From a virus, in IMG/VR virus record IMGVR_UViG_3300047558_000261, positions 1 to 48,758 of that record: a DNA stretch of 48,758 nt. The stretch is one strand, 5' to 3'. The notes beneath the pieces are model-generated. The model was not told where the DNA came from. It did no database searches and saw only the letters and a list, made by a program, of their open reading frames with translations. Below are positions 16,236 through 34,028 of the stretch, in pieces. Made by a program: the position numbers and the translations under genes. The stretch's first letter is position 1; each line of letters starts with the position of its first letter.

Positions 16236-19200
16236 ATGGCAGACAGTTACCGCGACTACTTCAACGACCGCATCACTCAAGAAATGGACCGCCAAAAGGA
16301 ATACGGTCTGAATGCCAAGTACGATGCGGTGCAAAAAGCCAGCGATGAGAAGATTGCGCAGCTGAAAGAAGAAATTCGCACCAATACCCGCAACGACGAT
16401 CTCTATTGGAAGAGCCGCACGGGTTCTTCGGTGCTGGAAGACTTTGCTGATGTGGGTCTGGCGGGTGTGCAAGGTGCAGAAACGCTTCTGAAGCTGCCCA
16501 CCATGGTTGTCGACAAGGCCATGACTGGCAATTTCTATGGTCCTGCCACGCAAAAACTCAGCGAGTGGCAAGACGATCAAGAGAAGATGAAATCGGCCTT
16601 GTCCCAGTACAAGACCCAAGAAAAAAGTGCTGTCACGGCCGAACGTGGCCAAGCCGTCAAGGATGCCGTGGGTGATGGGCTTGCCGGCACAGCGGCTCAG
16701 GTGGCTACCGAGTTCGGATCGTCTTTCTGGGAAGCCATGAAGGATCCCACGAGCATCCCTGAGTTCTTGGCTCAGCAAGCCGCACAGTTGGGCGTGACCG
16801 GCAAGGTCGGCCGTACCGTGGAAGCCGGTGCCAAGGTTGCCGCCAAGGCAGCGCCGAAGCTGGCCGCTACCAAGTTGGGTGAAGCCGCTCTCGAGAAGAG
16901 CGCTACAGCCGGTGCTGTTGGCTTCAGTGCTGGGTTGCAGGGCATCGATGTCGGCTCTGACACGATGCAACGCCTCATGGCCCTGCCAGATGACCTCTGG
17001 CTTCAGAACCCTGAGTACCTCGCCCGCGCGCAAGAGGTGGGTGCCGACGCAGCCAAACAGGAAATCGCATCCGACCTGGCCAGCAAAGCCACGTTGGCCG
17101 CAGCCGGCGCTTCGTTGCTGAGCACCAAGATGGTCCCCGGGGGTGCTGCCCTCGAGAAGGCTCTCGTTGGCAAGGGTAAGGCCAGCATCGGCATGGTGCC
17201 CAAGGTGTTTGCTGCCGAAGGTACCCAAGAAGGTTTGGAGGAAGGCTCTGGCCAGTTCCTCAACAACGTCGCTACCCGACAGATCAACCCCAACCAGTCA
17301 TTGGCTGAGGGTGTGGGTAATGCTGCCGGCCAAGGCGCCTTCATGGGTGGCTTGTTGGGTGGTGGGGTGCAAGCCCTGAACACCACAGTCCCTGAGTCGA
17401 TTCGCAATCTCGCCGTTGCACGTGTACAGGAGAGCAGCGATCAGGACACGCTCAAGGCAATCATCGCAAGCGGCGACGTGTCTGCGTTAGTCGATCCCAA
17501 GAGCGCGACCTACAACCCTGGTTTGGCTGTGCAAGGTCTTCAAGCCATTGCATCGCAAGAAGGCAAGTCCGCAGAGGACAAGCAAGCAGCACTCGAGCAA
17601 GCCGCCAAGGTGGTGTCGGATGCGCAGACCCATGTGGAAACGCTGAAAAACAGTTTGAGCCGCATCACCAAGGAAGGTCTGGTAGCAGATCTGGCCATGG
17701 CCAACGATGCGCTGGCCGCAACCGATCCTACCGACACCAATCAGGTCAATGTCATCAAGACATGGATCGATGGTGTGCAAGGCAAGATTGATCGCTTCGA
17801 TGAGAAGGCTGCAGCAGAGACGTTGGCCACTCGCCAGCAAGAAATCACTGCATTGGAAGACCAGATTCAGGCATCCAAGGACACGGTCTCCCGTTTTCGT
17901 AAAGACCTGCAGTCGGTTGATGTGGATGTCGAAGCGGAAGCCAAGAACATCACGGCCGCAGACCCTGTGGCTTCACAAGCAGCAGCCGACAAGATCATCA
18001 ATTTGTCGATGGCTGCACCTGAGCGCTTGTCCGATGAGACAGCTCAGCGATTGGCTCAGTCAGAAAGCCTGACTGCAGACCAGCGCGCGTACTTCCGTGT
18101 GTTCTCGAAGGCGCGTGCGCATGCCAACAGTCTGCTCACCATGGGTGAGACCAGCCAAGAGATTTACCTGGGTGCAGCGGCCGACCCTACCAAAGGCAAA
18201 CCACGCATGCTGGGCATCAAGGACTACCGAGAGGAAGTCGGCAATGCACTGGCCACTGGAGACCGCAAGGAAGCTGCACGCTTCCTGATCCTGCTCAAGG
18301 CATTTGCCACAGGCCATGCCAAGAAAGCCAAGTTGGTCACCGATGCCTATGCCGAAGTCAAGGCCGGCGGCGCTGATCGCCGTCTGGTGCGCTTGGCCGA
18401 TGGGAATTGGAAAGTGGAAGAGGGCAAGTTTGCTTCGGCAGACGCCCGTCAAGAAAACGGTGGTTTGGACATCACCAAGGCATCGGCAAAGTTGCCGCGG
18501 GAAATCCAAACTGAAGCAGCTGCACTGAGTTCTGCCTATGACGAGCTGACTGCAGCGTACAAAGTCAAGTTTGGTGGTTCCAATGTCAAGAACGTATCAC
18601 CCGCCCCGGGAGTTCAAGAGAGCTCGACAGAGCAAGCTACGGCCCCGGCAGAAGCAAGTGCCGAAGCAGGAGCTGCAAGCGATGAACAAGGATCCGCAAA
18701 GCCAGATGTACAGAGCAGCAAGTCAGCTGACACAGCTGAAGCGGCTCAAGCCGATGGAGTAACTGAGGAAGCCTCCGGCTCTTCTGCGAAGACTGTAGAA
18801 ACTGTGTCGACTGAATCTACTAAGTCGACTACAGCTGAAACCCAGTCTACTGAGGAAGGTACCACAGTCGAAGACGTGCCCGAAGCGGCACTTGAAGATG
18901 CGTCGAGCACTCAAGGCTTGTCGGTATTTCAAGACAAGTCGGCCGATGAAGTGTTGCCTGCAGGTACCAAGTTGGGTGCTGTGTATCGCACCCTCAACAA
19001 GGCTGTGGCTTTCCTGACCCAGACTAAGAAGCGCATCGAAAAGGATGCGGACATCGCCAAGGATCGTCCCCTGGTGTCGGTCGGCAACCTGCTGAGCCTG
19101 TGGAATGCCGGCACAGTGGTACCCACGGACTTCTTCCAAGAGTCATTGACCGACGAAGAGATTGGCTCGCTGACCAACTTCCAGAAGTTTGCCAATAAGT

Positions 19201-22200
19201 GGGCACCCCTGATCCGTGAGCAATTGATCAAGGGTGGCTTGGCCAATTTAAAGGGTGTCAAGCCACGAGCAGACTTCTTGTTCGAAGATCCGCTCCAAGA
19301 CTTCTTCAATGCAGATGGTTCGGTGGACGAGAACCTCGTCACGGCCATTGCCTATGGTGCCTACAGCTGGATGGCTGAGACCGTCAACGGTACGGCATTG
19401 AAGGACTCCGAAGCCATCCTGAAGATGAATGGCTTGCGCGAGAACATGGACTTGTCGGTGACCACTGCGGGCATGAAAGCCTTGTCGGATCTGGCCACGA
19501 CGCAAGACCGTGCCGCTGCCAACATCGGCAAGCACATCGTCGACGCCTTGGGCCTGAAAGCCAACGCAAAAGCCGAAGCCAATTACATGGCCAAACTGCA
19601 GACAGCTTTTGGCCTGCAAGCCATTGTGCTCTTGGCTTCACAAGACCTCATTGACACCGTGAATTACACCGGTGCCGAGATGAACGAATTCATCGATGGC
19701 TTGAACGTGGACAACGAGTTTGCCCAGTTTGAGTACGTGCGCGTGGTTCGCAGCAATCTCAAGCTAACCGGCGCCAACAAGGAGATCAAGGATTCCTCCG
19801 TAGGCTCACGCGGTGTGCTGACTCGTATGTTCAGCTCCGAGGCTTCACCCGCTTACGCTTCTTGGGTCCCACGTCGTTTTTCTCAGGCCTACGCAAAGAA
19901 GACCGGCCAGAACATCACCGAGAAGCAACGCAAGATCTTGGACGCAGCCCAGCAAGTCCCCCATCGCATCATCCCAGCCATGTGGAATGCGTTGAACGTG
20001 TTGGGTGACACCGTGATCCTGCAAGCCGCTGGCTGGAAGGAGTACGACGAGTCCAAATTGCACGTCGAGAACCGTTTGAACATGCAAGCCAAGAACGACG
20101 GCTTGGAAGTTCAGCTCGAAGGCATGAAGAACTTGGTGCAAGACGCAGAGAAGAACAGCCCCAACAAACTGGAGCAGGCCTTCTATGCGACTTACGAAGT
20201 GTGGCGAAACTTCCGTGTGGGTGTGGCAACTCAAGACATGAACTTGCAAGGCAGCAAGATCCATCGCTTCATGTTCTACCGCCCTGAGTGGGTGACCAAG
20301 TTGAACCTGAACGACCGCAAGGCCATGGACCGATTCGAGTTGGCCGTGGCTCAGGCATTTGGGGTCAAGGTGGACCAGCAGAACAATGTGGCCACGCTGC
20401 AGTTGTTCAACGATCGCATGGCTGAGAACGACGGTGCGATCAAGAAGCTTGCCATGGCCGTTGCCGCGGCAATCGAATCCAATGATGCCAATGCCTTGAC
20501 CGGCGGTCAGAAGCAAGAGGTTGCTGAGTTTGCTGCCGGTCGTGAAGGCATGCAATCTCTCCAGGCCCTGGTGGCTTACGGCAAAGTGTTGAATGCCGTG
20601 GCTCAGCAAGAGTCCGGTGCTGACGTGAACGATGTCACTGTGCACATGCTGGTGGGCGTGGACGGCAAGACCAACGGCCCGATCTTGACTCAGTTGGCTT
20701 TGGGTGCTGCCGATACGGCCAAGAACTTGTTCACCCGTCTGAACCGTGGCGGCATGTACAAGAGCGACGACGGCGTCAAGAACTACAACCACTGGTACGA
20801 GCGCGCGACCAGCTTGGACCTGTACGAAGACTTGGCCTTCCAGATCTTGAACGGCATCGCCGTGACCAAGGACTTTGCAGCCATCAGCGTCTTTACCAAA
20901 AAACTGATCGACGAGAACGAAAAAGTCACCACCGACGGCCGCAAGCTGGCCAAGACACCGCTGACCGCTTTCATCTTTGGTTCGTCCATTGATGGTTCGG
21001 TGCGCAGCATGCAGGAAGCTTTCGTCCAGCAAGTGATTGACCGCATCGAAGCGGTGGCCACTGGCCAAGACAAGAAGACCAGTCGTGCGGATTTGATCTT
21101 TGGTTTGAACCAGCTGCTGGGTACCAACCTGTCCGAGAACACCCCCATCGACGAACTGATGGAGAAGCGCTTCACGAAGGCAGACCGTCAAAAGCTGGCC
21201 GACAAGTTCTATGAGCAGATCGGCTCACGTGTTGAAGACACCATGAAGGCGTACTTCGAAACGTACCTGAACCGCCGCAATGACATCAACCGCACGATCC
21301 AAGGATCGTTCGAGATCTACAACGCGATCTACCAAGACCTCAAGGCCAAGGAAATCCAACGCTTGATCGAGGCAGGCGAGATCGACACCGTTGAACGTGA
21401 CGGCAAGAAGGTCCCGATCCACAACATGACGATGGCTCAAGAGCAAGCCTTGCGTGAGAAGGTCAAGGCCATCATGCCTATGGCCAACACTGCTTACACG
21501 GTCGACAACAACGAGCTCGATGCTGGCCTGATGATGGCCAAGAACAGTCCAATGACGAGCGACGAGGCCAGCAACCGCGTCAAGATCCAGTTGGGCAAGC
21601 GCATTCCGAAGAAAAACGGCTATCCCGTGTCGACATTCGTGGGTCAAGCCCTGACTCAGAGCGAACGCAACCCCGGGGTTGCCGGTTTGCCGTACTTCAT
21701 GCACTCGCTGGACAGTTTCATCATGCACATGTCTCTGATCGGGACTGAAACACTGAACGTGCACGACGAAGCGGCGAACGGGGTGGGCAATGTGGAGAAA
21801 ACAGCCCAAGCCATCAACCAATCGACTTGGGAAGGCATGCTCAAATTCTCGCCAGCGACCGAAAGTTACAACATGCTTGTGCGCGTGCTGCAAAACGCAG
21901 CCCAGATGGCTCAGGCAGGGGAACTTTCCCCCGAAGCACTGGCCGGCATCAAGCAGGCACTGCGTGCGCAGCTCCCTTACGCGCTGCGTAACGAGATTGC
22001 TGACGACAAACTGGCATCGGTAGTGTTGGATCTGGCTTTCCGTGCCCAGTTCGAAGCCAACCGCGTCCGTTTGGAGACCTTGGCTCAGATGACATCTATC
22101 GACCAGTACACCTGGGAAGGTGGCGAGTACATGGTGACCAAGCAGGACCGCCAAAACGCGCAGGAAGCCCTCCAAAAGCACCTGCAGGTGTCTGCGGTAG

Positions 22201-25200
22201 ACCCAACCCTCATTGCGGCCACAGAGGCCCTGAATAAGGCCTTGGCTGAGACGTCCGTAAAGGCCGATCCGGTGGTGATCGAGCAGGACAAGACGGTCGG
22301 CAAGAGCTCGATCGGTGAGTTGGGCAAGCCTGCCATCGCCAGCGATCGTGATCTGGTGGAATTCTTCAGGGTAAACCCGAATGCCACGGCCAAGCAGGTG
22401 ATTGATCTGTTGTCGGCGGCAGGGCGCCTCAGCCCTGTGAACCGCAAGTTGCTGCAACTGGTCAGCCGTGTGGTCTCAGCTGATCTGCCGATCCAGTACG
22501 TGACCTCGCGCACGACGGAAGAGCAAGTGCTCGAGAAAGCCAAGTCCCCCTCACGCGGTTGGTACGTGGTGAAGGGCAATGCAGAGTCGATCTACGTCCT
22601 GAGCCCTGAGTTCAAGAACTCTGGCTTGACGGCTGAGACCTTGCTGCATGAATTGATCCATGCCGCCGTGGCCAAGACGATTGCCAACCCCACGGCCGAA
22701 GGCAAGAAGCTGGTGGGTGAGCTGGAATCTCTCATGGCCAAGGCCAAGGAGTTCGCTGCAGCCAATGGCCTGACCCAGTTCGATGCGGCACTGAATGACG
22801 TTCAAGAATTCGTGGCTTGGGGCATGAGCAATCTGGACTTCCAGAAGGAAGTCTTGACCAAGATCACCTTCGAGTCCAAGACTCGTGGCAGTGCTCTGGT
22901 GACCGGCATGCAGAAGTTCATCTCCACGCTGGTCGGCTTGCTCTACAAGAAGCCTGATGAAAACATGGACAGTGGTCTGTCGGTGTTGGTGAGCAACGTG
23001 TCTGGTCTCTTCAACGAAGCCAGCCAACAAACCAACGAAACCACAAGCATCAATCTGTCTCAGCAAAGCCAGCAAGCAGGGGCGGAGTTCACTGCCCAGC
23101 AAGTGTTCAAGTCTTTGGACAAGGGCAACGTCAGCCCATCCTTCCAAAGCCACATGAGCAACTTGCTCTCTGGCATGGTGCAGTCGGTCTACGGTCCGTT
23201 CGGTACCTTGAAGGAAGCGATGAAGTCGTCCATGGCCAGCACTCCGATGGATGCTTGGCTCAAGGCGATCGAGACTGGGGTGGCACCGTTTGCTTCGAAG
23301 TTGGTGAACTCCAACTTTGCAGCCAGTGCACAGGAAGTGTTCGTGATGGAGCAGGTCGAAGCCACAGTGGCCTCGGCACTGAGCATCAACGACATCACCA
23401 CCAAGCCGGCATACCGCGAGCTCTACAAGCTCTTCACCGAAGCCAAGGAAACGCTGACCGTTCAGGACTTCGTGAACGCTGGCTTCACAGCAGCGGATCA
23501 TGCTTTCGTCTTCAACATCGAAGGTGGCAACGATGGTCGTTCGGACTACCTGTCTCGCTTTGCTGCGCTGGGCCTAGCCAATGAGAAGTTCAAGGGTCTG
23601 CTGAACTTCAAGACGGAAGCTGGTCGCGTGAATGTGGGCAACGAGAAGTCGCTCTTCGATCGTTTGAACGCTTGGTTCGAACAGATCTTGGCCTACTTCA
23701 ACCACAAGGCCACCAACACCTACGCGGGTCAGAAGGCTGACTCCAAGTTGGAAGCACTGGTCGATCGCCTGATGGACATCGAAGCCAAGCATCGCTTCAA
23801 GGCCAATGCCGGTGAGACCGCGTTCCAGAAGTACGGCGCCGTGGTCGAAGACATGACCAAGGATCTGGTCGACGCCTCCAAGCAGAAGGTCATCGACTGT
23901 GCCAACAGCCCGATCGTTCGCAACTCCTCCTCCGGTATCGTGAAGTGGGGTGCTGCGATCGGCAAGGTGGCGGCTTCGGGTCGTGCTGCTGCCGTGATGA
24001 CGGCACTGCGAAGCCTGCGTGATCATGCCACCGATGAGCGTGATGGTGTGTGGGCTGGCTTGATGCGTGAGATGAAGGGCCCTGCAGAGTTGGTTCAGGC
24101 CTTGCTCCTGATGACGAAGCACAGCGAGAACCTTCGCCAGAATGCCATCGCGCAAACGGCCAGCGTGTTGCTGAAAGAGTTCAAAAATGGCGGCAAGTCG
24201 TTGGGTAAGGAAGACAAGGTTGCATTGACTTCGGTGCTGCTGCGAAGCGGTGCCCACAACTTGATGGGTCAGTACTCGTTGGCTCAGATTGCGCAGATGG
24301 TCAGCAGCAACACCGCGTTGGACCAAGAAATTGCCGCGGTAGAAGCGTCGTTGACGACGGGCTTGAAGCAGATGCACATCAACATGGCCAAAGGCCTTGG
24401 CTACTTCAAAGCCACGGACCTGAACACCGTGCCGTTCCTGATGCGTAATGCCTACGTGATTGCTCGCATGTTGGACACCCAATACGCTGGCCAGATCACC
24501 GAAGCCCAAGCCGCTGCAGAAGAGAGCAAGATTGCTTCGTTGGTTTCGTTGTACGCGATCAAGTACAGCACCGTGAAGGATCGCCAAGCGGTGTCGTCCA
24601 TCATGGAGCAAGAGAACCTGCGCACCGATGGCAACGGGGTCGACCTGATGCTGAAGTTGCACAAGGACATGGAGCAGGAATCGCTAGATCGCCTCTTTAA
24701 TGGCAACCGTGTGCAGATGACCCATGGCTACACGCCTGAGATCTACGATGCTTACGTGACGATTCAGGTAGCCAATGAGCAAGAGGGTGCTCGCCTGGTA
24801 GCCCAGGGCTACGAGAAGGGTGACCTGGTGACGTCAGACAAGAACGTCCCTGATGCGGCCGGTGTCTACGGCATGAAGCAGCACATCTACATCCGCCGTG
24901 ACGGTGGTCTGACCCGTCGTGTGTCGGGTGTGATGTCGTTGACGGGTATGAAAGCCAAGGGCACGATGATCCACAACGGGTTCATGAACACGAACACCTA
25001 CCAAGGCACGTGGAACGCTTCGCTGCAGAACTCGGTGATGATTGCCAAGCAAGGTGAGTTGGCTGCCATGGCTTCGAATACGAACTTCGATCCGACGGCC
25101 AACAAGCAAGTGAACGTGGCTCCGGTCTATAACGACAACGGACACGTCGTGAACTGGGCCCACATGATGGGTGGCAAAACCAAGGATCGAATCTTGAAGC

Positions 25201-26552
25201 GCGAGAACCGCTTCGACAAGGTCATGGGCACCTTGGCTGGTTCGATCATCGACAAGCACAAGGGCCGTGAGCTGAACGAGCAAGCGATCACGGCGCTCTT
25301 GACCCAGTACACGGTAGAGAAGTCGGTGACGCCTTGGTCTTACGTGGAGATCGGTCCGCTCTCGAGCGATCCCGAGAACCGCGAGCTCTGGGACCTGTTG
25401 CCTGAGCAGACGCGCATGGACATTCGCAAGATCTGGGGCCGTGACTCAATCATGGTTCGCAAGGATTCTGTGGACGTGATCTTCGGCTACCGCAAACTCT
25501 CGGCCGGTGACTTCCTGAACAAGGAGCGCAAGGACTTGGAAGGTGTGGAGCTCATGGCTCGCAACCTCTTCAACTCGCTGGCTCTGTACCGCGGCAAGTC
25601 TCAAGAGGAAGCCGACGATTGGGCCAAACGCATGGGTGCTGCTGTCGTCAAGGGTGAGCGTGGCTGGCAGGAGATCTACAAGGAAGTCAAAGATATCATC
25701 GTGGTCAAGAACTTGATCACGCTCTTGGGCAACATTCACAGCAACGTGTCGTTGCTTTGGTTGCTCGGTGTGGATGATGGCTGGAAGCGTCAGTGGACGG
25801 CACTGCGCGGCATCATGGCCTACGAAGAGCACAGCAAGCGCTTGATGGAAATCCAGATGAAGCTGGACTCTGGCTATGCCGGCAACCGCTCAGTGCTCGA
25901 GCAAGAGGTGGTTCGCTTGCAGAACGAGATCGCGCGCAACCCAGTGACCAAGTTGGTCGAAGCTGGCTTGATGCCCACGATCGTGGAAGACGTGGACCTG
26001 CAGGAAGATCCCTACAGCTACAAGAGCGAGCTCAGCGAGAAGCTGGAGAAGTGGACCAACAAGTTGCCTGAGAGTGTGCGCAAGGCAAGCAAGGTGGTCT
26101 ACATGACCCACGACACGCCGCTCTACAAGGTGCTCAGCCGTGCTACTCAGTACTCAGACTTCGTGGCTCGCTATGCGATGTACGAGCACCTGACCACAGG
26201 CAAGGAACCGATGAGCCATGACAAGGCGATCCTAAAGACCTTGAACGCATTCGTGCACTACGACGTGCCAATGCAGCGCAACTTGCAGTACCTAGATGAC
26301 ATGGGCTTCACGCCCTTCATGAAGTACTTCTACCGTGTGCAGCGTGTCTTGTTCGAGACGATGAGGGAACGCCCTGCTCGGGCGTTGAGCATGATTCTGC
26401 TGAACAGATTTGTGGATTTGGGACCCATCGTTCTGGATTCCTCACTGGTACATCACGCCGGCAACATGCCTTTCCGTGGGGGTGCGTTGCAGCTGCCAGG
26501 GGTATTGGATGAGCTCTTGACAGTCCAGGCTGGGCTGGCAGTCGTTAAATAA
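16236..26552 (+). CDS. Giant 3438-residue virion protein with zinc-peptidase motif
   Basis: One frame covers about a fifth of the window. The N-terminal part is helical and Ala-rich, with Gly/Ala stretches (about residues 150-380) that could insert in membranes. Residues 785-893 form a Ser/Thr/Glu/Ala low-complexity linker. A HELIH zinc-peptidase motif lies at residues 2138-2142, with a likely third ligand Glu2191 in DVQEFVAWG; this block resembles the peptidase found in large polyvalent phage proteins. The remaining long helical regions have no motif I recognise. Its position after ejection proteins suggests it is packaged and injected like T7 gp16, N4 vRNAP or Bcep22-type giant proteins. 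I see no T7-type RNA polymerase motifs. Activity of the peptidase is inferred. Confidence 0.75.
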   Translation: MADSYRDYFNDRITQEMDRQKEYGLNAKYDAVQKASDEKIAQLKEEIRTNTRNDDLYWKSRTGSSVLEDFADVGLAGVQGAETLLKLPTMVVDKAMTGNFYGPATQKLSEWQDDQEKMKSALSQYKTQEKSAVTAERGQAVKDAVGDGLAGTAAQVATEFGSSFWEAMKDPTSIPEFLAQQAAQLGVTGKVGRTVEAGAKVAAKAAPKLAATKLGEAALEKSATAGAVGFSAGLQGIDVGSDTMQRLMALPDDLWLQNPEYLARAQEVGADAAKQEIASDLASKATLAAAGASLLSTKMVPGGAALEKALVGKGKASIGMVPKVFAAEGTQEGLEEGSGQFLNNVATRQINPNQSLAEGVGNAAGQGAFMGGLLGGGVQALNTTVPESIRNLAVARVQESSDQDTLKAIIASGDVSALVDPKSATYNPGLAVQGLQAIASQEGKSAEDKQAALEQAAKVVSDAQTHVETLKNSLSRITKEGLVADLAMANDALAATDPTDTNQVNVIKTWIDGVQGKIDRFDEKAAAETLATRQQEITALEDQIQASKDTVSRFRKDLQSVDVDVEAEAKNITAADPVASQAAADKIINLSMAAPERLSDETAQRLAQSESLTADQRAYFRVFSKARAHANSLLTMGETSQEIYLGAAADPTKGKPRMLGIKDYREEVGNALATGDRKEAARFLILLKAFATGHAKKAKLVTDAYAEVKAGGADRRLVRLADGNWKVEEGKFASADARQENGGLDITKASAKLPREIQTEAAALSSAYDELTAAYKVKFGGSNVKNVSPAPGVQESSTEQATAPAEASAEAGAASDEQGSAKPDVQSSKSADTAEAAQADGVTEEASGSSAKTVETVSTESTKSTTAETQSTEEGTTVEDVPEAALEDASSTQGLSVFQDKSADEVLPAGTKLGAVYRTLNKAVAFLTQTKKRIEKDADIAKDRPLVSVGNLLSLWNAGTVVPTDFFQESLTDEEIGSLTNFQKFANKWAPLIREQLIKGGLANLKGVKPRADFLFEDPLQDFFNADGSVDENLVTAIAYGAYSWMAETVNGTALKDSEAILKMNGLRENMDLSVTTAGMKALSDLATTQDRAAANIGKHIVDALGLKANAKAEANYMAKLQTAFGLQAIVLLASQDLIDTVNYTGAEMNEFIDGLNVDNEFAQFEYVRVVRSNLKLTGANKEIKDSSVGSRGVLTRMFSSEASPAYASWVPRRFSQAYAKKTGQNITEKQRKILDAAQQVPHRIIPAMWNALNVLGDTVILQAAGWKEYDESKLHVENRLNMQAKNDGLEVQLEGMKNLVQDAEKNSPNKLEQAFYATYEVWRNFRVGVATQDMNLQGSKIHRFMFYRPEWVTKLNLNDRKAMDRFELAVAQAFGVKVDQQNNVATLQLFNDRMAENDGAIKKLAMAVAAAIESNDANALTGGQKQEVAEFAAGREGMQSLQALVAYGKVLNAVAQQESGADVNDVTVHMLVGVDGKTNGPILTQLALGAADTAKNLFTRLNRGGMYKSDDGVKNYNHWYERATSLDLYEDLAFQILNGIAVTKDFAAISVFTKKLIDENEKVTTDGRKLAKTPLTAFIFGSSIDGSVRSMQEAFVQQVIDRIEAVATGQDKKTSRADLIFGLNQLLGTNLSENTPIDELMEKRFTKADRQKLADKFYEQIGSRVEDTMKAYFETYLNRRNDINRTIQGSFEIYNAIYQDLKAKEIQRLIEAGEIDTVERDGKKVPIHNMTMAQEQALREKVKAIMPMANTAYTVDNNELDAGLMMAKNSPMTSDEASNRVKIQLGKRIPKKNGYPVSTFVGQALTQSERNPGVAGLPYFMHSLDSFIMHMSLIGTETLNVHDEAANGVGNVEKTAQAINQSTWEGMLKFSPATESYNMLVRVLQNAAQMAQAGELSPEALAGIKQALRAQLPYALRNEIADDKLASVVLDLAFRAQFEANRVRLETLAQMTSIDQYTWEGGEYMVTKQDRQNAQEALQKHLQVSAVDPTLIAATEALNKALAETSVKADPVVIEQDKTVGKSSIGELGKPAIASDRDLVEFFRVNPNATAKQVIDLLSAAGRLSPVNRKLLQLVSRVVSADLPIQYVTSRTTEEQVLEKAKSPSRGWYVVKGNAESIYVLSPEFKNSGLTAETLLHELIHAAVAKTIANPTAEGKKLVGELESLMAKAKEFAAANGLTQFDAALNDVQEFVAWGMSNLDFQKEVLTKITFESKTRGSALVTGMQKFISTLVGLLYKKPDENMDSGLSVLVSNVSGLFNEASQQTNETTSINLSQQSQQAGAEFTAQQVFKSLDKGNVSPSFQSHMSNLLSGMVQSVYGPFGTLKEAMKSSMASTPMDAWLKAIETGVAPFASKLVNSNFAASAQEVFVMEQVEATVASALSINDITTKPAYRELYKLFTEAKETLTVQDFVNAGFTAADHAFVFNIEGGNDGRSDYLSRFAALGLANEKFKGLLNFKTEAGRVNVGNEKSLFDRLNAWFEQILAYFNHKATNTYAGQKADSKLEALVDRLMDIEAKHRFKANAGETAFQKYGAVVEDMTKDLVDASKQKVIDCANSPIVRNSSSGIVKWGAAIGKVAASGRAAAVMTALRSLRDHATDERDGVWAGLMREMKGPAELVQALLLMTKHSENLRQNAIAQTASVLLKEFKNGGKSLGKEDKVALTSVLLRSGAHNLMGQYSLAQIAQMVSSNTALDQEIAAVEASLTTGLKQMHINMAKGLGYFKATDLNTVPFLMRNAYVIARMLDTQYAGQITEAQAAAEESKIASLVSLYAIKYSTVKDRQAVSSIMEQENLRTDGNGVDLMLKLHKDMEQESLDRLFNGNRVQMTHGYTPEIYDAYVTIQVANEQEGARLVAQGYEKGDLVTSDKNVPDAAGVYGMKQHIYIRRDGGLTRRVSGVMSLTGMKAKGTMIHNGFMNTNTYQGTWNASLQNSVMIAKQGELAAMASNTNFDPTANKQVNVAPVYNDNGHVVNWAHMMGGKTKDRILKRENRFDKVMGTLAGSIIDKHKGRELNEQAITALLTQYTVEKSVTPWSYVEIGPLSSDPENRELWDLLPEQTRMDIRKIWGRDSIMVRKDSVDVIFGYRKLSAGDFLNKERKDLEGVELMARNLFNSLALYRGKSQEEADDWAKRMGAAVVKGERGWQEIYKEVKDIIVVKNLITLLGNIHSNVSLLWLLGVDDGWKRQWTALRGIMAYEEHSKRLMEIQMKLDSGYAGNRSVLEQEVVRLQNEIARNPVTKLVEAGLMPTIVEDVDLQEDPYSYKSELSEKLEKWTNKLPESVRKASKVVYMTHDTPLYKVLSRATQYSDFVARYAMYEHLTTGKEPMSHDKAILKTLNAFVHYDVPMQRNLQYLDDMGFTPFMKYFYRVQRVLFETMRERPARALSMILLNRFVDLGPIVLDSSLVHHAGNMPFRGGALQLPGVLDELLTVQAGLAVVK

Positions 26553-26633
26553 CTTATGGGTGGGGGCTACAGGTAAGAAGTTACCCTACAGCTACTATCG
26601 CCACGATATAAAAGCGTAACCCCCATTCATAAG

Positions 26634-26654
26634 CACCGTCTCTCCGATGTGTCA
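26634..26654 (+). repeat. Hairpin module copy 1 of 4
   Basis: The stem CACCG/CGATG (one C-A mismatch) has loop TCTCTC, followed by TGTCA. It starts directly after the 3' strand of the 14-pair helix ending at 26633. Confidence 0.65.
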
Positions 26655-26753
26655 TACGAGGCTTGTGTGCACTATTGCCTGCCCCAGGATTTACCGCGGT
26701 ACCTGGTAGCTCATGCTGGTAGTCCGTATATTACCGCTGCTCTTGAATTTGGT

Positions 26754-26774
26754 TCCTGTCTCTCCAGGATGTCA
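26754..26774 (+). repeat. Hairpin module copy 2 of 4
   Basis: The perfect stem TCCTG/CAGGA has loop TCTCTC, followed by TGTCA. Stem bases differ from the other copies while loop and tail are kept. Confidence 0.7.
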
Positions 26775-26980
26775 CGCCCTCGGATGCGTTAGCCTCAGGT
26801 TCGCTCGACATCTAGAATGAGCAACCCTTGAACTTGTTTGTCTTCGTGTTTCGATTCTTTGTGAACTCGTCTTGATGCACCGTCGTGAGGTTTGTCTCGT
26901 TGACCGGGCTCCTTTCGAAGGGAGTCTTGTCAACGTCTAGCACTGCCGCTGCAGCAGCCCAAGACAAGTTCACAAAAAAT

Positions 26981-27001
26981 CCTCGTCTCTCCGAGGCGTC
27001 A
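26981..27001 (+). repeat. Hairpin module copy 3 of 4
   Basis: The perfect stem CCTCG/CGAGG has loop TCTCTC, followed by CGTCA. It starts 7 bases after the helix strand ending at 26973. Confidence 0.7.
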
Positions 27002-27237
27002 CGCCGTTCTGCTGGACTTCTGATCTCCAGGCGTTCTCGTGTCGCAATTACAAACAATCCAGCTTGTGCCGGTCCCCGTATCATGGCCGGACATGGAGTT
27101 CAGGCTTTGGCCGTCGCTCGAGTAATGGGTTGATGGCTACTAGCTCTACGGCCTGTTATGGGCTTTCAACCTACGCTACTGCGTTCACCATCACGGGTGG
27201 GGACTGCTCACATAAAGCAGTGTAGGGAAGGAGTCTC

Positions 27238-27267
27238 ATGGCTAAAAGCAATGAACAACGGCGCTAA
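27238..27267 (+). CDS. Possible 9-residue peptide inside the structured RNA
   Basis: ATG at 27238 opens MAKSNEQRR and then TAA. A strong ribosome site (GGGAAGGAG) ends 4 bases before the start. It sits in the region enclosed by the 20-position helix 27187-27206/27276-27295. It could be chance, a leader-type peptide, or part of the RNA's function. Confidence 0.25.
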   Translation: MAKSNEQRR

Positions 27268-27295
27268 CCCGTTGCCAGTCCCCATACGTGATGGT

Positions 27296-27316
27296 CCCCG
27301 TCTTTCCGGGGTGTCA
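27296..27316 (+). repeat. Hairpin module copy 4 of 4
   Basis: The perfect stem CCCCG/CGGGG has loop TCTTTC, followed by TGTCA. It starts directly after the 3' strand of the 20-position helix ending at 27295. Confidence 0.7.
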
Positions 27317-27369
27317 ATCTAGTGGCTTAGAGCCCCACTATTCTAGATCTCGGGTTGATCTTAGATGCG

Positions 27370-27555
27370 CTATTTGCGCAATCCGCCTTCGCAGAGTTCC
27401 TTGATCAGGAGCGCTACGAATCCGACAGCAAAGGCGCCAACGATGAAAGCACCGATGGCAGCAAGCACTGCGGAGATGAAGGTTCCTGCAAGGATGACTA
27501 CTGCAATGGCCAGCATTGCGGCTACGATGTAGCCGATACTTTTAAGCCACTGCAC
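27370..27555 (-). CDS. 61-residue membrane protein, two spans
   Basis: A GTG start at 27555 lies 8 bases after the stop of the upstream gene, with AAGG about 8 bases before it. Two hydrophobic segments (about residues 7-27 and 29-52) are joined by a short Gly turn, with a charged C-terminus (IKELCEGGLRK). It is the last gene of the leftward replication operon and faces the structured RNA. Function unknown. Confidence 0.6.
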   Translation of the reverse strand: MQWLKSIGYIVAAMLAIAVVILAGTFISAVLAAIGAFIVGAFAVGFVALLIKELCEGGLRK

Positions 27556-27563
27556 ACACAGCC

Positions 27564-27881
27564 TTAATTAAAAAGGCTCGTGGTCGGTGCTGCGGGACCT
27601 TCAGCAGTTTCAGGAGCCAGAGCTTTTGGCTTGACTTCTTCGGCTGCTTTGGTTTCTGCGGTGGGAACCACAGTCAAGGCGGGCTTAGCATCATCTGCAG
27701 CTGCATCGCTGAAGCCAGGGATCTGGGCATCATCGATAGTGACATCAGCAACGATACCGGCAGCACCGCGCGTAGCTGAGAACGCGATTTCCACGCTCTT
27801 GCCTTGCAGGTTGATGCCTTGAGTCACGATGTACTGTTTCAGTGCAGCAATGATTTCGCTTTGCTTGAATTGGATTTGCAT
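27564..27881 (-). CDS. Small conserved phage protein with PTTSLF tail
   Basis: The protein has 105 residues. Residues 1-55 form a small alpha/beta domain (MQIQFKQSEIIAALKQYIVT, then GKSVEIAFSATRG); a similar small domain occurs in other short-tailed phages without known function. Residues 60-97 are a disordered Ala/Pro/Glu/Lys linker. The end, APTTSLFN, is almost the same as the end of the putative SSB (KPTTSLFA), which suggests both bind the same partner. It lies at the far end of the replication operon. Confidence 0.65.
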   Translation of the reverse strand: MQIQFKQSEIIAALKQYIVTQGINLQGKSVEIAFSATRGAAGIVADVTIDDAQIPGFSDAAADDAKPALTVVPTAETKAAEEVKPKALAPETAEGPAAPTTSLFN

Positions 27882-31886: not shown

Positions 31887-34028
31887 TCATCGTTTTGCAA
31901 TGGCCTTGGCTACGGTAATCATGATGGTGCTCATGATCTCGGCTTCGTCCAACTTATCGGGAATCTTCTCGTTCAGGCTCATGACGCGCTGACGGATAGG
32001 TTCGAATTCGAAACCACCATCAACCAGGATCATGGCGAAACGCAGCATCATGTTGTTGCGGTTGCCGTCACCTGTGTTATTCATGACCCAACGCTCGAGG
32101 TTGTCCATGGAGTGCTGAGAGTTCAGGAGCTCCTTGCGCTCTTCGTTCTTACTGGTTTTCGGAATGAAGGGCAGGGCATCGAGCACGTCACCGTCGTTGT
32201 ATTCGAAGTGGCCGTCGTGAGACATCCACTTGCGAGCACGCTGGCCGGTAGCCGTATCACATTCGAATGGGAGCCATTCGTAGATGTTGCTCATGAACTC
32301 TTTGTAGTCCTTGGCATCGAGCGTCAACTCGTAGTTGATCGGGAAGATGATGCGGAAACGGTTCTCGTCTTCGGTATGGCGCTTGGTCGTGTAGACGAGG
32401 AACTTGTAGTTCTTCATCAGCAGCTTGACCGTGCTGAGATTGACTCCACCATCGACGTCGATCACCACCAGGTTGAAACCTGGAATACAGTTCTCTTCGT
32501 TGCGGTAGCCACCATTGAGGTGGTGAGCAACCCAGTGCAGGCCTGGTGCTTGAGTCAGCTTGCTCAGCTGATCAAACGGCGCATATTCGTTTCGGTAGTC
32601 CGTTGTGATGTCCGTGCTGTAACTCACGACCATCTTGTCGAGGTCCGTCTCTTTGAGAGTCTCGCCTCGCAAGAACTCGATGCCATCGCTGAATGACTTC
32701 TTGATGATCACGTTGTTCTTGTAGCCCCACGCAGTTGCCAGTGTGAGCATCTCGGTTTTCTGTGCAGCAGCACCGCGGTAGAAGGGCAAGTCCTCGGTGA
32801 GGTCAGCTTGAGTGACATCACGTTTGGTCGTGCCCAAATACTTGGCGAGCTTCACATACGCACGATCGCGTGTGAGGAGCTGATTGAAAGCCTCGCCTGA
32901 TTCCTCGGCCAGTTTGATGGCTTGGTACAGGTGGGTCTCGGTGAGCTCTGGAGAATCGTCGATGAAGGCGTAGGCGCCAGCCAACTTCAGAGCCTTGAAG
33001 TAACGATGAGAGATCTCGGCTTTCTTGATCTCCTCGTGTTCAGGGTAGAGGTTGGCTTCACGCTCACACTTCAATCGGTACTCGATGAGTACCAGACTGG
33101 TCTCCTTGCTCATCACCAAACGCTTGTTGACGTTGATGATGTCGGCCAAGCCTTCCAAGCGATCTGACAGCTGATCCAGATACTGGTTGCTGTCTTGATT
33201 GGTCAGCTGCTCGTAGACCTCTTCGGGGGTCTGATCTACAACGCGGTTTGACGCGCGGCTGTAGCCGAAGAAGCAACGACGTGCGTAGCCAGTTTCGAGC
33301 ATCGAGTAGAGCTCTTCTTCTGTCTTGCTGCCATTCAAAAGCTTGGAAGGCGTGCCGAACAACAGCATGTTGGTCGGTGTGCGACCCACAATCTCTTCGT
33401 TACGCGTGTTCTCAGCGGTGTTCTTGATGAGCTTCTGCTTGATCACACCCATGTCAAACAACTCGAGGAACGTGTTGAGCACGTCCACGTTGCTGACCAG
33501 GTTGGAGCCGATCTCGTCAATCTGCAAGTTCACCGAACCTGCATCTGCCATCAGCAGCTTGTGACGCATCTGCTTCACCGCTGCCGGCGTACCGGAGTCG
33601 AAGCTGAAAACCAATGAGCCAAGGCCTTCGAATTCCTTGGACACACGGATCAGCTCTTCGTCTGGATCGGTGCTCTTGCGATTGGCTCGCTTAAGAGCAA
33701 GCTTTGGCAAGTTCTGCTCAGCCAGGATCGGGAACGTCTCTTCGAGAAAACGTCCACGGAACTGGTTGATCACATGGTTCTCCATGATGTTCGTGGAGAA
33801 GCCTTTGCCAGAGCCTGAGGTGCTCAGGTTCAACGCGTACATGTTGACCGGGATGTCTCCGCGGTCGTGTGTAGCGATGGTGGTTCGCATCATCGAAGCC
33901 ACCAGGCTGAAGTAGTAACCCACGAGCACACGAAAGAACAGTGGGTTGCTGTTCTGAGTCTTGCTGCAGAGGATTTCAACCAACTGTTCTGACGTTGGGT
34001 TGTACTCCATTTCGTCAAGTGTTTTCAT
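31887..34028 (-). CDS. Helicase-like ATPase fused to archaeo-eukaryotic primase
   Basis: I chose the ATG at 34028 (713 residues; the frame continues 30 codons upstream into the nuclease gene). The N-terminal half is an ATPase of the plasmid/phage DUF3987-like type, with Walker A STSGSGKGFS (about residues 69-78). The C-terminal part carries an AEP primase core: IDVDGG with Asp524 and Asp526, then YTTKRHTEDENRFRIIFPI. It ends in a PriCT-like domain (GDGNRNNMMLRFAMILVDGG). It probably primes and unwinds DNA at the phage fork. The order ATPase-then-primase is the reverse of common primase-helicases. Confidence 0.7.
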   Translation of the reverse strand: MKTLDEMEYNPTSEQLVEILCSKTQNSNPLFFRVLVGYYFSLVASMMRTTIATHDRGDIPVNMYALNLSTSGSGKGFSTNIMENHVINQFRGRFLEETFPILAEQNLPKLALKRANRKSTDPDEELIRVSKEFEGLGSLVFSFDSGTPAAVKQMRHKLLMADAGSVNLQIDEIGSNLVSNVDVLNTFLELFDMGVIKQKLIKNTAENTRNEEIVGRTPTNMLLFGTPSKLLNGSKTEEELYSMLETGYARRCFFGYSRASNRVVDQTPEEVYEQLTNQDSNQYLDQLSDRLEGLADIINVNKRLVMSKETSLVLIEYRLKCEREANLYPEHEEIKKAEISHRYFKALKLAGAYAFIDDSPELTETHLYQAIKLAEESGEAFNQLLTRDRAYVKLAKYLGTTKRDVTQADLTEDLPFYRGAAAQKTEMLTLATAWGYKNNVIIKKSFSDGIEFLRGETLKETDLDKMVVSYSTDITTDYRNEYAPFDQLSKLTQAPGLHWVAHHLNGGYRNEENCIPGFNLVVIDVDGGVNLSTVKLLMKNYKFLVYTTKRHTEDENRFRIIFPINYELTLDAKDYKEFMSNIYEWLPFECDTATGQRARKWMSHDGHFEYNDGDVLDALPFIPKTSKNEERKELLNSQHSMDNLERWVMNNTGDGNRNNMMLRFAMILVDGGFEFEPIRQRVMSLNEKIPDKLDEAEIMSTIMITVAKAIAKR

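Follow-up and report, generated by a model that had tools for sequence, protein, structure and literature searches.

The stretch 26553-27363 of a 48,758-base virus sequence (analysed over its whole length and referred to here as the window) probably holds a stable-RNA island, a reading to which we assign a probability of about 0.6. By this reading, a minus-strand mosaic array of small RNA modules, lying at the 3′ end of the replication operon, would be transcribed as a precursor and cut into RNAs the size of transfer RNAs (tRNAs). Comparison of sequences directly supports the structure of the array, its orientation, mosaicism and position, and the covariation of a recurrent hairpin and of one module, module E. 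The RNA families that make up the island appear to be new.

Structure of the array

The gap lies between the end of a polymerase open reading frame (ORF) at 26552 and the next minus-strand ORF rightwards, a small hydrophobic one at 27370-27555. The preliminary description of this DNA had regarded the gap as gene-free sequence folding into many helices, and both points were borne out. No convincing gene was found in 26553-27363; the two ORFs inside the gap (82 and 90 amino acids) were not counted as genes because the modules that they span are reordered in relatives, and a protein-coding reading was rejected on this ground. Helices in which 15 or more of 18 positions form Watson-Crick pairs number three in 26553-27363; 60 dinucleotide shuffles and 55 other 811-nucleotide pieces of the window each averaged 0.05 and never exceeded 1. 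The longest helices have arms of 22, 20, 18 and 19 positions (91%, 90%, 83% and 79%, respectively), and long stalks were far above shuffles in four sequences, namely the window, its relative L269 and the phages N4 and KP8. The array was resolved into the following features, where hp denotes the recurrent hairpin.

26553-27363, minus: whole array, right to left H, hp4, E, F, D, hp3, C, an unassigned segment, hp2, B, hp1 and A (helices, comparison with relatives, strand evidence)
27317-27348, minus: module H, a palindromic hairpin, core common to L006 (sequence, fuzzy match)
27296-27316, minus: hairpin hp4, TGACA-CCCCG-GAAAGA-CGGGG (motif and helix)
27187-27295, minus: module E, with a 20-position stalk (arms 27187-27206 and 27276-27295) and an aligned core at 27193-27286 (helix, alignment)
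27131-27190, minus: module F, also in L004, L006, L240 and L285, its 5′ stem overlapping the end of the E stalk (module comparison)
27002-27127, minus: module D (3′ part conserved), found as well in the non-N4 contig L334 (module comparison)
26981-27001, minus: hairpin hp3, TGACG-CCTCG-GAGAGA-CGAGG (motif and helix)
26853-26981, minus: module C, with a 22-position stalk (helix, module comparison)
26775-26852, minus: segment between C and hp2 with no recognised module (no fuzzy match)
26754-26774, minus: hairpin hp2, TGACA-TCCTG-GAGAGA-CAGGA (motif and helix)
26655-26753, minus: module B, also in L005, L265, L269, L333 and L336 (module comparison)
26634-26654, minus: hairpin hp1, TGACA-CATCG-GAGAGA-CGGTG, whose odd pair is G.U only on the minus strand (motif and helix)
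26553-26633, minus: position of module A, with an 18-position stalk (26553-26570 with 26616-26633) (position and stalk)

The stalk of module C is largely replaced in sequence in L006 with its pairing kept. The interior of the window's module A has diverged from that of the relatives; the fuzzy core gave no match, and the module was placed by position and stalk.

A recurrent UGACR hairpin

Four copies of the pattern NNNNG-TCTYTC-CNNNN-YGTCA (plus reading) start at 26634, 26754, 26981 and 27296 and precede modules; a looser form of the motif likewise occurs four times in the window, with 0.41 expected. A narrow pattern run over viral contigs gave at least 119 stretches; a second scan, in which stem positions were left free, gave at least 120, with 96 hits in newly fetched loci. 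Among the matches listed from the second scan, 61 of 92 distinct hits were canonical at all three free positions, compared with 17.9 (maximum 28) after permutation of the right arms; when each stem was counted once, 24 of 45 were canonical versus 4.4 permuted (maximum 12). The other 31 hits lack full pairing, and some of them are due to chance. Of the distinct stems that contain a single odd pair, taken from the listed matches of both scans, 20 carried G.T on the TGACR strand, 6 on the other strand, and 7 another mismatch. The one-sided G.T excess together with the covarying stem indicates that the element is a 21-nucleotide hairpin of the TGACR strand (the window's minus strand), UGACR-NNNNG-GARAGA-CNNNN. 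All four window copies display the five-base-pair covarying stem, the GARAGA loop and the 5′ UGACR of this family, one of them with a G.U pair.

The surroundings of 259 distinct hairpins, listed among the matches of three scans (129, 79 and 51), were then compared. A tRNA starts within 60 nucleotides downstream on the same strand in 20 cases and on the opposite strand in none, and 16 of these tRNAs begin 3-10 nucleotides away. The next ORF within 400 nucleotides shares the strand of the hairpin in 138 cases and lies on the opposite one in 61, figures that are rough because of crude greedy ORF calling. The hairpin lies outside annotated genes, with the next gene or tRNA on the same strand, in the phages Vibrio 10N.286.54.E5, Gordonia Sour, Microcystis Mvi-JY20 (where tRNA-Leu begins three bases past the hairpin), Aggregatibacter S1249, Mannheimia 587AP2, Sinorhizobium phiM9 and Pasteurella Pmp14; weaker matches in MementoMori and MJing1 lie within genes. 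Each of 20 phage records tested carried one to four copies and none carried the reversed control. The hairpin thus occurs in phages of several bacterial phyla, including phages outside the Schitoviridae.

Since the hairpins adjoin modules in the window and sit 3-10 nucleotides before most nearby tRNAs elsewhere, a role in cutting or in protection of 5′ ends is the simplest reading. An alternative, which we consider unlikely, is that the hairpin is a boxB-like antitermination signal, at which binding of a protein or of the polymerase keeps transcription going through long, untranslated and structured RNA where Rho would otherwise halt it. The five-base-pair stem and purine-rich GA-type loop do resemble lambda boxB, and the hairpin sits in untranslated stretches ahead of tRNAs, modules and some coding regions; however, its placement a few nucleotides before tRNA 5′ ends is tighter than antitermination needs, and several copies stand within one array.

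Cellular genomes were also searched. One fully paired variant was found in 45 stretches of bacterial and archaeal genome contigs, and a reading of the hairpin as a host gene was rejected: in the family of the Polynucleobacter hit, 13 of 398 genomes carried the stem pattern versus 1 for the reversed control, a sporadic occurrence such as is expected of candidate prophages. On the 1.18 Mb contig of Polynucleobacter sp. UK-Kesae-W10 (L326), a chromosomal array combines hairpins with a terminal-helix module and stops close to a tRNA-Gly gene; it may be an integrated element.

Two further observations concern hairpin-bearing phage contigs. In L016, L023 and L056, a Shine-Dalgarno sequence with its start codon is directly preceded by two or three tandem hairpins, an arrangement suggestive of a leader role in some phages. 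In L010, L052 and L123, ARAGORN called tRNA-like genes with the odd four-base anticodons caag, gacg and aata.

Module E forms a second covarying family

The 18-base core of module E is present in 61 viral contigs. From 64 occurrences, 44 distinct sequences, the window included, were aligned after removal of duplicates and truncated copies. Helix P1 has 9 of 9 canonical pairs in 36 sequences, 8 of 9 in 7 and 7 of 9 in 1 (mean 8.80, versus 6.43 shuffled with a maximum of 7.02), and helix P2 is canonical at 4 of 4 pairs in 36 of the 44, versus 11.1 (maximum 16). The odd pairs of P1 comprise 20 G.U and 3 C.A or A.C on the sense strand. RNAalifold found double changes at 8 of 14 pairs, with P1 one base out of register in part of the alignment. 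Module E is accordingly a family in which P1 and P2 covary around the invariant GGGUUAGCGCC and CACUGCUUUAUGUGAGC. Covariation in homologues, proposed in the preliminary description as a check, was found for both the hairpin and module E.

Module E co-occurs with a terminase gene in L261, with portal and probable capsid genes in L258 and with a helicase gene in L232; in L233, L235 and L261 it is followed by tRNA-Met on the same strand. One terminal helix (CCAACACGCAUGGGGAUUG..CAGUCCCCAGCCGUGUUGG) wraps E, T-arm-bearing RNAs or other inserts in other phages. In L040 (1640-1779, plus strand) and L276 (minus strand, from 1566) this shared helix surrounds RNAs with a tRNA-like T-arm, GGACGTTCGAATCGTCC in L040, and ARAGORN called no tRNA in these two contigs despite the T-arm. 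In L334, whose polymerase and exonuclease belong to other families, module D is followed by a hairpin ahead of a start codon.

Mosaic order of modules in relatives

Synteny is common to L003-L006, L240, L265, L269, L277 and L285, as judged by a polymerase C-terminus 47-86% identical where present, or by gp47-like and RuvC genes. L333-L336 were found by a scan for module D, and L335 carries the polymerase gene. Fuzzy matching of modules was applied to 12 arrays, leaving out L334 and L335, and gave the following orders, read on the minus strand.

Window: H-hp-E-F-D-hp-C-hp-B-hp-(A)
L003: x-E-G2-G-D-hp-A
L005: x-E-G2-G-D-hp-B-hp-A
L004 and L240: x-E-F-J-J2-hp-I-D-hp-A
L006: H-hp-E-G-D-hp-C-F-A
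L265: x-E-G2-G-D-hp-B-hp-A2
L269: x-E-G2-G-D-hp-I-B-hp-A2
L277: x-E-D-hp-terminator
L285: x-E-F-J-J2-hp-D-hp-A
L333: x-D-hp-B-hp-terminator
L336: x-hp-I-D-hp-B-hp-terminator

Modules are gained, lost and reordered across the 12 arrays, and short stem sequences are shared at module edges between relatives. Although the polymerases of L003, L004 and L005 are about 85% identical to that of the window, their arrays nevertheless differ from it. Three of the 12 arrays (L277, L333 and L336) close at the far end with a minus-strand intrinsic terminator immediately ahead of the polymerase stop, each a GC-rich hairpin followed by a T-rich run. Module J carries tRNA T-arm sequences, and T-arm fragments occur in L004, L240 and L285; no tRNA gene was found in the window, L003-L006, L333, L334, L335 or L336. 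In L240, L265, L269, L277, L285 and L333 the first UGACR hairpin is replaced by a hairpin with a CGTAA loop, a possible second boundary element. A scan for module F gave eight hits, among which L358-L360 have nothing else of the module and look like chance.

The preliminary description had proposed one ornate large noncoding RNA, perhaps GOLLD or ROOL. A large noncoding region of structured RNA is indeed present, but no single fold is conserved, and the identity with GOLLD or ROOL found no support: no Rfam family matched the window at gathering score, a permissive Rfam scan of 26400-27500 gave six unrelated weak matches at chance level, and one conserved architecture of the GOLLD or ROOL kind was not seen across the 12 arrays. 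Because of this lack of an Rfam match, and because relatives differ in which modules they carry and in what order, we describe an array rather than one fixed RNA. The hairpin and module E had no Rfam 15 match in the loci scanned. BLAST of the window stretch against 50,697 phage records returned short chance-like matches only, and neither a module-E composite nor module D had a convincing match among cultivated relatives. No description of the arrays, the hairpin or module E was found in the open-licence literature, closed journals being outside the search.

Mimicry of ribosomal RNA (rRNA) was rejected as a general explanation, as most modules score like dinucleotide shuffles against real rRNAs; the best values, D against 16S and F against 23S, were each equalled by 2 of 200 shuffles, among 22 comparisons. 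Module B resembles the 16S 530 loop. The GAAAGA-type loop GGAAAGAC (window 27296-27316 and other copies) equals E. coli 23S 2056-2063, a position confirmed by comparison, and the variant GGAGAGAC is not in E. coli 23S rRNA. The stretch matched by GGAAAGAC belongs to the macrolide-binding region of 23S (compare PMC12887398).

Strand of the RNA

Folding does not separate the strands. Fold energy is low on either (z -5.2 for plus and -4.6 for minus, 20 shuffles each), and RNAalifold folded B, C and I better on the minus strand, A and G on the plus strand, and D and F about equally, the window's module A having aligned poorly; a strand assignment from folding was dropped in view of these mixed results. 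The wobble pairs from which a plus-strand RNA had been deduced in the preliminary description do exist, but the deduction fails, as minus-only wobbles are also present: the four long helices and four hairpins together hold six plus-only and four minus-only pairs, and both odd pairs of the longest helix are minus-only. The strand call therefore rests on families and context. The UGACR hairpin and module E families, the orientation of tRNAs downstream of hairpins, the terminators of the three relatives and the tRNAs of N4 and KP8 all point to the minus strand, which most likely supplies the RNA.

A single RNA of the plus strand, forming the 3′ end of the late transcript of the virion polymerase and being either a large noncoding RNA or a 3′ untranslated stabiliser, is improbable. 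It would accommodate the equally strong folding, the excess of plus-only wobbles and the slightly better plus-strand folds of A and G, which come from small alignments, but it conflicts with the strand evidence above and with the shuffling of modules, which leaves no single fold conserved. That the repeats and stalks act as DNA, as single-stranded hairpins for recombination or replication or as promoters for a virion polymerase of the N4 type, is very improbable: shuffled modules with shared stem sequences at their edges, the DNA hairpin promoters of the N4 virion polymerase (in an excerpt of PMC4496689) and a G.T asymmetry that also fits one DNA strand agree with it, but the hairpin is also found outside the N4 family, consistently oriented just upstream of tRNAs, and module E has several covarying stems with invariant loops.

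Genome setting and the equivalent place in N4

The genes around the array are the following.

16236-26552, plus: N4-type virion RNA polymerase (phrog_2206), convergent to the array
27370-27555, minus: small hydrophobic ORF that would be transcribed ahead of the array (ORF list, compare N4)
27564-27881, minus: homologue of N4 gp47 (39% over 49 amino acids, E 1e-6), the last recognised replication-operon gene before the array (protein match)

The minus-strand genes from 27564 rightwards include a RuvC-like resolvase, SSB, Sak4, a primase and ribonucleotide reductase; this set, together with the N4-type virion polymerase, identifies the source phage, on gene content, as Schitoviridae-type (N4-like). 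The small hydrophobic ORF has its parallel in a hydrophobic 55-amino-acid ORF after N4 gp47.

In N4, 1.5 kb between gp47 and gp48, the island at 32113-33631, is without annotated features, and we found tRNA-Asn, Ser, Thr and Pro in it; four N4 tRNAs are also given in an excerpt of PMC3670811, and three instead in one of PMC3715699. Helices of 27 and 24 positions close unannotated segments between these tRNAs (L353:8702-9632, equal to N4 32701-33631). The same N4 segment holds a T-arm-bearing RNA whose end reads CCGGAACCA; the KP8 counterpart of this RNA is annotated as tRNA-OTHER. Six annotated tRNAs and three long helices occupy the equivalent region of Klebsiella phage KP8, and an annotated terminator alone that of Achromobacter phage JWAlpha; Delftia phage RG-2014 has fewer than 150 bases between its last gene and the polymerase. 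The array thus matches the N4 tRNA cluster in position and orientation, as would be expected of a stable-RNA island.

A proposed route from precursor to small RNAs

In the stable-RNA island that we propose, read-through of the operon would give one untranslated precursor RNA. RNA units would be flagged on their 5′ side by the UGACR hairpin, and single modules wrapped by closing helices of about 20 base pairs, both serving general host nucleases as signals for processing and protection. With their 18-22 positions, the stalks are of RNase III size; RNase III may act on them, and RNase E or RNase P beside the hairpin, to release several tRNA-sized RNAs. We infer transcription in this phage, cleavage, the identity of the nucleases and any effector function of the released RNAs. 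The modules would be exchangeable cassettes traded between phages, and their fast exchange between close relatives seems to resemble that of accessory anti-defence genes; at a guess, the released RNAs are decoys or anti-defence RNAs. Expression in the middle phase may be supposed by analogy with the replication genes of N4, which its own polymerase transcribes mid-phase, the structural genes being transcribed late by the host's (excerpt of PMC4496689).

Several points weigh against this proposal. The hairpin is absent between some modules, with E, F and D running on, and B and D show no clear stalk; no terminator was recognised at the end of the window's own array, and no UGACR hairpin was seen in the 1.5 kb of N4. 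Among the 259 listed hairpins, 87 fall within an ORF by crude greedy calling, and the next ORF is on the opposite strand in 61 of 199 cases. Wobble pairs in the window slightly favour plus (6 versus 4), and RNAalifold on alignments of 2-12 sequences per module is mixed on strand.

More tentatively, and with less than even confidence, we suggest that the UGACR-GARAGA hairpin may be an undescribed RNA punctuation signal across phages of several bacterial phyla, read by a general host nuclease or RNA polymerase, which permits strings of exchangeable small-RNA cassettes that turn over among close relatives as fast as anti-defence genes. If so, the cassettes (E, D, B, C, tRNA-like and others) would each be a new family. 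Phage tRNA islands are already known, and what appears new is arrays of other tRNA-sized RNAs with a boundary hairpin of their own. The hairpin and module E, both supported by covariation, can be annotated as RNA families across phage genomes, and a similar island in N4 and KP8 makes the nature and cutting of such RNAs addressable in E. coli K-12 through a classic laboratory phage.

Comparison with known systems

The hairpin shares with lambda boxB/nut a small five-base-pair form, a purine-rich loop and a place in untranslated leader RNA, and differs in its hexaloop GARAGA, its conserved 5′ UGACR and its position 3-10 nucleotides before tRNAs in phages of several phyla. The stalks recall those cut by RNase III in rRNA precursors, where helices of about 20 base pairs likewise enclose RNA; unlike there, the RNAs enclosed in the window are unrecognised modules and cleavage is only putative.

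GOLLD and ROOL are large structured phage noncoding RNAs of unknown function, often near tRNA islands (excerpt of PMC12286853). The array is likewise large, structured and noncoding, but is a mosaic of small modules with no Rfam match. Compared with the N4 cluster, the window has the UGACR hairpin and other modules and no tRNA. With the tRNA clusters of N4 and KP8 it shares the Schitoviridae setting, the place after a gp47-type gene, the direction relative to the replication genes and the long helices around unannotated segments.
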